Source: a virus
Reading direction: 5' to 3' (one strand)
DNA: 24,574 nucleotides
Virus record (IMG/VR): IMGVR_UViG_3300019926_000160
Location: 1-24,574 of that record
Shown here: positions 6,445 to 8,507 of the stretch, one piece after another
Position numbering within the stretch: the first letter of the stretch is position 1
Layout of the letters: each line of letters opens with the position of its first letter
The notes under the pieces: model-generated
What the model was told of the DNA's origin: nothing
The model's database searches: none
The model's input: only the letters and a program-made list of their open reading frames with translations
Translations under genes and position numbers: made by a program

Positions 6445-7431
6445 ATGCCTTACTCACACACCGCCAACGAACAGGTCGGTCACAGCGGCGCGACGCTGAC
6501 GAAAGGGCGCGACCCGTCGAACACGCACGAACTACAAAAGGCACTCCTCCGGGCGCTCCAACGCCGCCTCCGAGAGGTTCGCGGGGCGATCCGGCGGACG
6601 GTCGGCTACGAAAACGACGCGCTCCAACTGCGGGCGAACGCCGACGCCACCGAGGCGTACGACTTTCCGACCCGACAGGCCCGCGTCCGGGCGTTCCTCC
6701 GCGATCTGCGGCGGTGGCTCCGCGAGGCCCTCGTCGGCGACGTGACGGCGACGACGAAGATCCAGAACGGCGACGTGTGGTTCGCCGAGTACATCGACAG
6801 CGCCTATCAGATCGGCGTCCAGAACGGCGAGGGGCGGCTCCTCCAAGCTGGCGTCAGTCTCACGCCGAGCGACCCGACGGACGCGCTCCGCCGACCGATC
6901 GCTCGCGACCAACTCGCCGAGTTATACGGGCGTGTCTTTGAGAACCTCCAAGGCGTCTCCGAGGACGCCGCCCGACAACTCCGCCAGGCGCTCACGGGCG
7001 GGCTGGCGGCGGGCAAGAACCCCCGCGACATCGCCCGGTTGCTCTCGGAGGAACTCCGGCAGATCGAGCGGTCGCGGTTGACGACGATCGCTCGGACCGA
7101 GATAGTGAGGAGTCATTCGCAGGCTGCAATCTCAACATACGAGCAACACGGCGCCGACGTCGTCTCCCATACCTCACGGCTCACCGCGAAAGATGCCTCA
7201 GTTTGCTCATACTGCCGTGCCCTAGGTGGCGTCCCGTTCACGCTCTCGGAGTTTCAAACTGCCACAGTGTCGTGGGGCGGCCAACCCTACCGTGTCGGCA
7301 TTCCGTCACATCCAAACGACAGGTGCTCTCCTGTTCCTGAGGTCGGGTTGTCTGCCGGCGAGCTTGATCCGCTCCGCGAGCGTATCCCGGACTCGGCTGG
7401 TGGGAAGCCGATCACGCTTCTCAGCGCCTAA
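6445..7431 (+). CDS. minor head protein, MuF / SPP1 gp7 family
   Basis: A 328-residue protein just after the portal gene, the usual place for this family. The C-terminal half shows the MuF (PF04233) signature: ARTEIVRSHSQAA (from about residue 216), a CSYCRALGG pair of cysteines (about 253) and HPNDRCSPVP (about 289-298), which together suggest a metal-binding core. The N-terminal half is helical and Arg-rich, compatible with contacting the portal or DNA. It probably helps head morphogenesis or is ejected with DNA. From about base 7095 on, codon usage shifts to lower GC, continuous with the adjacent HNH cassette, which hints at recombination in this 3' part. Confidence 0.87.
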   Translation: MPYSHTANEQVGHSGATLTKGRDPSNTHELQKALLRALQRRLREVRGAIRRTVGYENDALQLRANADATEAYDFPTRQARVRAFLRDLRRWLREALVGDVTATTKIQNGDVWFAEYIDSAYQIGVQNGEGRLLQAGVSLTPSDPTDALRRPIARDQLAELYGRVFENLQGVSEDAARQLRQALTGGLAAGKNPRDIARLLSEELRQIERSRLTTIARTEIVRSHSQAAISTYEQHGADVVSHTSRLTAKDASVCSYCRALGGVPFTLSEFQTATVSWGGQPYRVGIPSHPNDRCSPVPEVGLSAGELDPLRERIPDSAGGKPITLLSA

Positions 7432-7434
7432 GAG

Positions 7435-7444
7435 TAAGTATTAT
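7435..7444 (+). promoter_or_regulatory. candidate TATA box for the HNH cassette
   Basis: The AT-rich run TAAGTATTAT stands out in the GC-rich background. It lies about 27 bases before 7468, where the left arm of the leader hairpin begins, which is the right distance for archaeal transcription to start there. It resembles a haloarchaeal TATA element only loosely, and no clear BRE is seen. Confidence 0.3.
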
Positions 7445-7467
7445 GCGCGTAGAGACGCCACTAGTAG

Positions 7468-7532
7468 CCAAGAGCGCGTTTCCTGAAAAGGCCGGCGTGG
7501 TAGCGCCGACCGCGCTCTTGGAGACCAAGAGC
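7468..7532 (+). promoter_or_regulatory. bistable leader hairpins over the HNH start codon
   Basis: Three copies of one octamer set up two exclusive stems. CCAAGAGCGCG (7468-7478) pairs perfectly over 11 bp with CGCGCTCTTGG (7511-7521). The same GCTCTTGG (7514-7521) can instead pair perfectly over 8 bp with CCAAGAGC (7525-7532) around an AGA loop, ending directly at the ATG (7533). The GGAG Shine-Dalgarno-like element (7520-7523) lies across the right arm and the proximal loop, so it is partly masked in either fold. A second stem (7491-7497 with 7504-7510, one mismatch) nests inside the long hairpin. Translational control of the endonuclease is inferred. Confidence 0.6.
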
Positions 7533-8114
7533 ATGAGCCAATACACGTTGGAGGAGTATAATCCTCCGGGGCAGCAAATTGTACGGCCGTGTCGGGAGTG
7601 CGGTTCACCCGTCTCAAGAAGTCCGTCAGAGATGGAAGACGACAAACGCCCTTTCTGTTCGCGCGACTGCTATCACGACTGGCGCCGGGGGCGTACCTTT
7701 GGGTCACCTGACGGCAAGGAGTCCTATACCTGCGAGGAGTGTGGCGATACCTTTGAGAAGTGGCCCTCGCAAGGAAAACGCCGCTTCTGTTCGGCCGAGT
7801 GCCGGCACGATTGGTTGTCTTCTCGAACCGGGCAGGACCACCCACTGTGGGAAGGAGGCGTTGACTGGTATCGCGCAATCCGCTCCGCGCACGGGCCAAC
7901 CGGGTGGCACACGCAGCGAAAAGAACACCTCGCTGATGAGTGTGAAAACTGCGGTGAGGGTGAAGCCACACTGTCGCTCCACCACATCGTTCCGGTCCTC
8001 GCTGGCGGACCCAACGCGTCCTGGAACTACATGACGCTCTGCCGGACATGTCACCAGCGAGCCGAGGACTACTGTCGGGATCTCCCCGGAATGGAGGCGG
8101 TGCTAACAGAATGA
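7533..8114 (+). CDS. HNH homing-type endonuclease with zinc ribbons
   Basis: A 193-residue protein. Two zinc knuckles (C20, C23, C42, C46 and C67, C70, C86, C90) precede an HNH nuclease core with C137-C140, the LSLHHIVPVLAGG strand (His150/His151), Asn in NASWNY, and C170-C173-H174. This architecture is common in free-standing homing endonucleases of tailed viruses, which cut one allele of a neighbouring gene and spread by repair. The frame is open to an upstream ATG at 7443, but ATG 7533 is preferred: it has a GGAG nine bases upstream, and the extension merely translates the hairpin. GC content is lower than in flanking head genes. It overlaps the next gene as ATGA. Confidence 0.85.
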   Translation: MSQYTLEEYNPPGQQIVRPCRECGSPVSRSPSEMEDDKRPFCSRDCYHDWRRGRTFGSPDGKESYTCEECGDTFEKWPSQGKRRFCSAECRHDWLSSRTGQDHPLWEGGVDWYRAIRSAHGPTGWHTQRKEHLADECENCGEGEATLSLHHIVPVLAGGPNASWNYMTLCRTCHQRAEDYCRDLPGMEAVLTE

Positions 8115-8437
8115 CAGAATACGATGAATCAAGAGGCATACTAAGCGAGGCGGATCGTGAATATCTCAGAGGAGCTGATAACTACAGCAGACAAGCGGCT
8201 CATGAGAGAGAAAAAGCGATAAATCTGCGGTTTAAGCAGGCACTGTCTGATATAGTGCTATTATCCGATCACAAAGAAAAACTCGACATACACACTGTCG
8301 AGTTGGAAGTGTGGGATCGGGCAGTGGATGGTATTCGCAAACTCCACCCAGACGATAAAGGACCCGAGGCTGACGCCCTCCGTGATCTTGCCGAGAAGTT
8401 AGAGGAGCAAGCAGATCGGATCGAGGACGAGAGTTAA
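8111..8437 (+). CDS. conserved haloarchaeal-type hypothetical protein
   Basis: A 108-residue protein starting at the ATGA overlap with the HNH gene. Its N-terminus (ESRGILSEADREYLRG, then SRQAAHEREKAINLRF) resembles a short domain I associate with haloarchaeal proteins of unknown function: a G(I/V)LS.ADREYLRG turn followed by an Arg/Glu-rich helix and a hydrophobic segment (ALSDIVLL). The C-terminal part is a charged helix. Codon usage is the most AT-rich in the window, suggesting that it arrived together with the HNH gene from another host or virus. No enzymatic motif is visible, and its function is unknown. Confidence 0.75.
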   Translation: MTEYDESRGILSEADREYLRGADNYSRQAAHEREKAINLRFKQALSDIVLLSDHKEKLDIHTVELEVWDRAVDGIRKLHPDDKGPEADALRDLAEKLEEQADRIEDES

Positions 8438-8457
8438 CGCCGTATCGTACCGATGAC

Positions 8458-8506
8458 GCCCCGCCGGGGCCGAGACCCAGATCCGGCACGGACGTTTTTT
8501 GTTTTT
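8458..8506 (+). terminator. possible terminator ending the HNH cassette
   Basis: A 5-bp GC hairpin (GCCCC 8458-8462 with GGGGC 8466-8470) is followed after a spacer by a T6-G-T5 run (8495-8506), the densest T-tract in the window. Oligo-T alone can signal termination in archaea. It ends two bases before the protease start, so readthrough or a nearby promoter would be needed for the downstream head genes. Confidence 0.45.
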
Positions 8507-8507
8507 C

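Follow-up and report, generated by a model that had tools for sequence, protein, structure and literature searches.

Three octamer copies in front of a viral HNH endonuclease gene are one copy of a widespread, apparently undescribed family of folded RNAs in haloarchaeal and viral messages, as judged by sequence comparison. In its favoured reading, to which we assign a probability of roughly 0.7, the family is a two-state translational leader at the AUG with mutually exclusive A-B and B-C helices. The window was a virus record of 24,574 bases (IMGVR_UViG_3300019926_000160); related loci are given by L numbers.

The leader and the HNH cassette in the window

The octamer trio was confirmed, and the window virus is not alone in having it. 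As the sequence-only reading had proposed, the octamer occurs twice with its complement in between, and its last copy adjoins the ATG (Table 1). Both of the proposed pairings were confirmed: strands A and B form 11 bp with 32 nt between the arms, and B forms 8 bp with strand C around a 3-nt loop. The Shine-Dalgarno-like GGAG, which had been placed in the switch, does touch both helices, but across the leaders such a site is enriched rather than constant. The lone fold of positions 7466-7560 was A-B around the inner hairpins P2 and P3, with -36.5 kcal/mol and a z of -3.1.

Table 1. Positions of the leader and cassette features in the window.
Feature	Position	Strand	Basis or remark
TATA-like TATTAT	7439-7444	+	29 nt upstream of strand A; putative promoter
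Octamer CCAAGAGC	7468-7475 and 7525-7532	+	Sequence
Strand A	7468-7478	+	Inverted-repeat sequence; predicted message 5' end
Inner hairpin P2, CCU GAAA AGG	7482-7491	+	Folding and covariation
Inner hairpin P3, CGGCG UGGUAG CGCCG	7493-7508	+	Folding and covariation
Strand B	7511-7521	+	11 bp with A, or 8 bp with C via 7514-7521
GGAG, Shine-Dalgarno-like	7520-7523	+	Sequence
Strand C	7525-7532	+	Adjoins start codon ATG 7533
Hairpin inside coding region	7548-7569	+	8 bp, 6-nt loop; starts at +16
Inserted cassette	7432-8507	+	Between MuF gene (6445-7431) and next head gene (ATG 8508)
HNH endonuclease gene, 193 aa	7533-8114	+	PF01844, E 1.2e-9; N-terminus aligned with relatives
Second cassette ORF, 108 aa from ATG 8111	8111-8437	+	No Pfam match
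T-tract at cassette right end	8495-8506	+	Sequence; possible terminator

The gene order near the leader is terminase-like, portal (PF06381), MuF (PF04233), HNH (PF01844), a small ORF and a further gene; the terminase-like assignment is weak, below the curated cut-off. The 1.08-kb cassette is absent from two sister contigs, L087 and L088, where the MuF stop is followed by the next gene within a few bases and MuF is 72% and 69% identical, respectively. The HNH gene was not found anywhere in these two records. An empty insertion site beside a conserved gene is what a free-standing HNH homing endonuclease cassette leaves in relatives, and the HNH domain was recognized both by PF01844 and by invariant H, H and Cys columns in the alignment of relatives. 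The gene is described here as a putative free-standing homing endonuclease cassette, the insertion of which is supported by the sequences compared. Most HNH cassettes lie after a MuF gene, as tested in the window and L008, aligned in L096 and L097, and seen by eye in several of the others. The second cassette ORF is AT-rich (GC about 0.48 compared with about 0.69 around it) and overlaps the HNH stop (ATGA).

The HNH reading frame is open back to ATG 7443, which falls inside the TATA-like box. ATG 7533 is more likely to be the start, since the MxQxxL motif conserved at the N-terminus aligns from that codon. An initial alignment to HATV-3, over residues 3-30, had suggested that translation begins at ATG 7443 and that the repeats are coding. 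This reading was rejected on account of an in-frame stop of HATV-3 just before its own start, stops of L008 and L116 inside the leader frame, and the alignment of MxQxxL at 7533. The conserved N-terminus can be written in full as MxQxxL(D/E)x(Y/F); the N-termini of the window (7533-7562), L002, L008, L096, L103, L104, L105, L107, L115 and L117 match MxQxxLx(D/E)(Y/F) exactly or nearly. The motif resembles the PIP box, QxxLxxF/Y, as if the protein were tethered to PCNA.

Leaders of related viral HNH genes

Viral relatives were gathered by successive protein searches and their leaders were then read. The order A-P2-P3-B-loop-C-ATG recurs in L008, L096, L097, L104, L105, L106, L107, L110, L111 and L116; with the window counted, the layout is kept in 11 viral HNH leaders despite strongly diverged sequence. 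The five nearest leaders, including that of the window, are 82-93% identical, while their proteins are only 37-62% identical to the window's. In the remaining viral leaders the plan is kept and the letters are not. The pair counts on the five nearest leaders were uninformative because almost nothing varies among them.

A detector that required at least 5 bp beside the ATG and at least 7 bp to an upstream arm, thresholds chosen after the leaders had been viewed and exceeded by the window helices (8 and 11 bp), was positive in 10 of the 11 viral leaders, window counted. The chance rates were 4 in 2000 when the window leader was dinucleotide-shuffled, 50 in 22,000 when all eleven leaders were shuffled, and 4 in 654 for control ORF starts. 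L097 fails the detector by one C.A mismatch, and L108 starts within the leader, with only B-C visible. No leader was detected before the HNH relatives L098, L109 and L113, nor in L103 and the named halovirus relatives L003-L006. A fixed link between the leader and HNH genes was considered and rejected.

In the L097 gene (2473-3285), the C-terminal half is HNH, with 58% identity to that of the window, and the N-terminus is unrelated and helix-turn-helix-like by eye. The gene sits behind a related leader, an arrangement that would reflect a domain exchange downstream of the leader.

The family across haloarchaeal genomes

The covariance model R1 was built from the five nearest viral leaders. L097, L096, L008 and L116 were recovered with E-values between 3.6e-6 and 9e-4, and L107 with no better than 0.3; L110 was not among the matches listed. 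At E<=1, R1 matches were obtained in 151 of 391 Halobacteria genomes. When 30 genomic loci of R1 were read, 21 had every element of the plan in front of a start codon (ATG or GTG), and 9 were coding-like; the latter (L189, L198, L200-L204, L207 and L209) were dropped by eye, and L181, with a GTG start, was excluded from later counts.

The second model, R2, was built from eight haloarchaeal genomic leaders and zero viral ones. Its best match among 28 viral or related loci was the window leader, with 46.6 bits and E 4.2e-9. All 11 viral leaders were recovered, ten at E<=1.8e-4 and L116 at 0.018, these E-values being rough since the calibration of the models was short. The conserved leader of about 65-80 nt was matched by R2 at E<=0.01 in over a third (142/391) of the sampled Halobacteria genomes. 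One copy precedes VNG_RS11530 on pNRC200 of Halobacterium salinarum NRC-1, a laboratory strain (L300 2554-2643, E 1.2e-5). A match at L010 1817-1886 (E 0.018) had most of P1 mispaired and was dropped. The leaders studied comprised 90 R2 places (30 given loci and 60 fetched) and 12 from R1; these 102 leaders are 101 places, as L196 and L235 are one place.

No Rfam 15 match was found over the window leader at E<=5 or over the leaders of 16 related loci at E<=1. The Rfam family sot0042 (sense overlapping transcript RNA) matched L199 278-449, about 1 kb upstream of a leader. The 30 chromosomal HNH loci (L150-L179) gave nothing below E 0.3 with R2. A different leader, of two successive hairpins, precedes HNH in HATV-3 (L002 2888-2964), L115 2880-3003 and L117 2900-3003. 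Its second hairpin ends at the ATG and has compensating arms, GGGCA/TGCCC, GGGTG/CACCC and GGGAG/CTCCC. This type was not matched by R2 and was left out of the family.

Covariation of the two helices

The sequence-only reading had named covariation in related cassettes as a check of the two hairpins, and compensatory changes were found for both the A-B fold and the competing B-C helix. For A-B, P2 and P3 the count was made on 90 genomic matches, of which 80 were distinct and 8 had also trained the model; 95.9% of the cells were paired and 17 of the 19 pairs changed on both sides. The two-sided cells numbered 149, compared with 35.8 +/- 4.8 in shuffles and at most 26 with the partners slid, in an alignment that is model-fitted, leans towards the model and tallies sequences rather than events.

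A perfect B-C hairpin of at least 5 bp, ending at or beside the ATG, was present in 89 of the 102 leaders, and 86 carried both B-C and A-B (at least 6 bp), in a set partly selected for C because the models hold C as unpaired columns. Most of the other 13 had a mismatched or shifted version. In 73 leaders with 11 distinct C arms, C paired with its own B at 5.99 of 6 bases; with the C arms dealt out at random the value was 4.29, reaching at most 4.71 in 2000 shuffles. At the doubly pairing bases of B, A and C change together, as in the triples A-U-A, G-C-G and C-G-C at position 3. When 20 genomic leaders were aligned with MAFFT and folded with RNAalifold, only a partial fold of 10 pairs was obtained, 2 of them with two-sided change; we suspect a two-base shift of B between groups as the cause. 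In L265, L267, L269, L270 and L199, the overlap of the two helices on B is only 2-3 bases, and such leaders could hold most of both helices simultaneously. Taken over the sequences compared, the structure of the leader is well supported.

Promoter, Shine-Dalgarno-like site and coding-region hairpin

In 78 leaders the AT content peaks, at 0.90-0.92, between -30 and -28 from A. With the usual archaeal TATA spacing, the 5' end is therefore predicted at A or a few bases before it. The sequence-only reading would have been refuted by transcripts beginning inside or downstream of the repeats; the start predicted from sequence lies at the proximal repeat, A. Short palindromes, among them TTTGCTTAGCAAA and GTTACAAAGTAAC, were seen just upstream of the promoter in L210-L229, L241, L245 and others, and are possibly operators.

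Of 81 genomic leaders, 40 carry a Shine-Dalgarno-like 4-mer between -16 and -5 and 41 lack one; the count was 404 of 2292 for background ATGs and 8 of 11 for the viral leaders. A hairpin inside the coding region starts at +17 to +23 in 30 of 68 non-redundant leaders, compared with 8.8 (maximum 17) in codon shuffles. Only at these positions is the effect strong; taken generally, the excess is weak (5.07 versus 4.53 bp).

Genes behind the leader

The first ORF behind the leader is often short, 18-296 aa in 89 leaders. The tested genes encode HNH (L217), a SWIM zinc finger (L185, L266) and, directly behind L286, a tyrosine integrase; beyond the first ORF, the next gene is a tyrosine integrase in L262 and a LAGLIDADG endonuclease in L225. 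The downstream proteins of L225, L226, L228, L231, L234 and L236 have similar starts, of which only that of L225 was tested. RAMP-like proteins lie behind L184/L211, L188/L212, L192/L213, L197 and L208, and directly behind L240; the roughly four that were tested matched Csm3/Cas7 or RAMP weakly, without reaching the curated cut-off where there is one, and for L192 and L197 the link is sequence likeness by eye. A haloarchaeal RAMP-like protein family (DSIMTDRHHASNGNY...) was noted behind L184, L188, L192, L197, L208, L240 and others. Small proteins without an assigned family also follow the leader. The element is confined neither to homing endonucleases nor to viruses, given its frequency among Halobacteria genomes and the varied genes downstream.

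Energetics of the two states

In the window the energy model gave 0.99 for A-B and 0.00 for B-C. The corresponding values for L116 were 0.98 and 0.01, whereas L111 was strongly B-C; the leader set is consequently not uniformly balanced. In ten viral leaders the difference between the states ranged from -4.4 to +3.4 kcal/mol, the window being the most A-B-biased. The 86 genomic leaders had a median difference of -1.2 kcal/mol, with 56 within 3 and 83 within 5 kcal/mol, and A-B was favoured in 57, all with parameters that apply to 1 M salt rather than to haloarchaeal cytoplasm. The claim of two exclusive hairpins thus holds in that covariation backs both helices, but for the window the energy model predicts nearly A-B alone. 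Two-state behaviour there would therefore need a trigger or non-equilibrium folding. The modelled energetics of the window argue against a spontaneous equilibrium switch and for a trigger or a mostly open start.

Discussion

Comparison of the leaders establishes both pairings, the junction and the position at the AUG; which state is on, and that some factor shifts the balance, we infer. The cassette would have its own promoter, with the message starting at or just before A, and A would pair with B around the two hairpins in a three-way junction. In this state C, the Shine-Dalgarno-like bases when present, and the AUG would be mostly single-stranded and translation would be on; A-B is taken as the open state because it leaves C and the AUG free. 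In the alternative, B would release A, at least its outer part, and pair with C, so that the 3' arm of the hairpin abuts or includes the AUG and translation is off or low. That B-C lowers translation is suggested by analogy with a Haloferax 5'-UTR stem-loop. The states would be exchanged by a short branch migration over the bases common to A and C, and the balance may be shifted by the folding order, the ribosome, a protein or a ligand. Since B can pair with either the message start or the start-codon strand, the pairing of this middle strand probably decides the translation of homing endonucleases and other mobile-element genes. For a homing endonuclease the result would be less nuclease from a message inserted among head genes.

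The leader might instead be a constitutive initiation element, in which the folded leader and the coding hairpin place the ribosome on the AUG of messages most of which have no Shine-Dalgarno site, and B-C is an incidental or structural partner. The coding hairpins at +17 to +23, the preference of most genomic leaders for A-B and the Shine-Dalgarno-like 4-mers in only about half of them are in agreement with it. However, C covaries with B, A and C change together although A-B alone needs no C, and B-C reaches into the AUG in several leaders; we regard this explanation as unlikely. A special case of the two-state leader is a switch that senses a ligand or protein, with the junction and the P2/P3 loops as the receptor and binding choosing the state. 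The junction and the inner hairpins are kept with strong covariation, and many unrelated mobile-element genes have this one element in front of them, as would suit a common signal. On the other hand, no unpaired core with the high conservation seen in known riboswitches was demonstrated, the loops vary and the genes share no known pathway, which leaves sensing a rather doubtful special case.

The sequence-only reading had pointed to the hairpins that silence homing endonuclease genes of phage T4. In T4-type genes a promoter inside the structure gives hairpin-free messages. The haloarchaeal leader is not simply such a hairpin; its TATA-like peak, as read from sequence, lies 28-30 nt upstream of A and not inside the structure. 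Start-region RNA structures are described for I-TevI/II/III, segB and mobE, and a timing device in which read-through transcripts carry the sequestering hairpin and an inner promoter gives free messages would be in line with them. With the start placed at A by this peak, all three strands would be present on read-through and free messages alike, and many leaders precede genomic genes with their own promoter-like box; such timing is very unlikely. The least credible explanation is a feature of the DNA itself, i.e. a cassette end, a protein-binding palindrome or a recombination scar. The sequence-only reading had allowed for a cassette boundary, which is correct in position only, as the leader opens the inserted cassette. 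The cassette right end has no counterpart of it in the sequence read, and the leader keeps a fixed place between the promoter-like box and the AUG at many unrelated loci, with covariation.

The two-state leader may, as a tentative proposal with the odds against it, define a new regulatory RNA class of archaea, a switch that works by strand exchange at the start codon and through which a common trans-acting signal reaches many mobile-element genes at once. If this is true, the switch covers homing endonucleases of two unrelated folds, integrases, RAMP-type and small proteins, and haloarchaea, or the elements themselves, control the translation of many mobile-element genes together.

Comparison with known systems

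Leaderless messages reportedly predominate in haloarchaea, at 72% in H. volcanii (PMC7531240), and natural structured regulatory leaders in haloarchaea are, in our reading, little documented. The present leader was not found described in the literature covered by title or by the start of the abstract, a scope outside which most subscription journals lie, and an earlier description elsewhere is possible. The leader offers a ready system for studying initiation by archaeal ribosomes in the absence of a Shine-Dalgarno site, as well as the restraint of selfish genes.

In bacterial translational riboswitches and RNA thermometers, alternative pairings hide or free the initiation region, and the leader is similar in having alternative pairings there. 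It differs in being archaeal, in having no Rfam match and in that it would hide the bases before and in the AUG and not mainly the Shine-Dalgarno site. The Haloferax volcanii gene HVO_0721 (the growth-phase-regulated 'hp' gene) likewise has a 5'-UTR structure that lowers translation without a Shine-Dalgarno site: in the sections consulted, the stabilised stem-loop abolished translation and the destabilised one resulted in constitutively high translation (PMC2636863). There, a single predicted stem-loop of -7.4 kcal/mol belongs to one gene, and these sections describe no family or strand exchange (PMC2636863). In the T4 group, RNA structure over the start region is described for I-TevI, I-TevII, I-TevIII, segB and Aeh1 mobE (PMC2988022). 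The leader shares with them an RNA structure over the start of a selfish endonuclease, expected to keep translation low. In these genes one hairpin hides a bacterial ribosome-binding site (PMC2988022), whereas the leader has three strands and two exclusive helices, the message start itself is one of the strands, and many other genes carry it.
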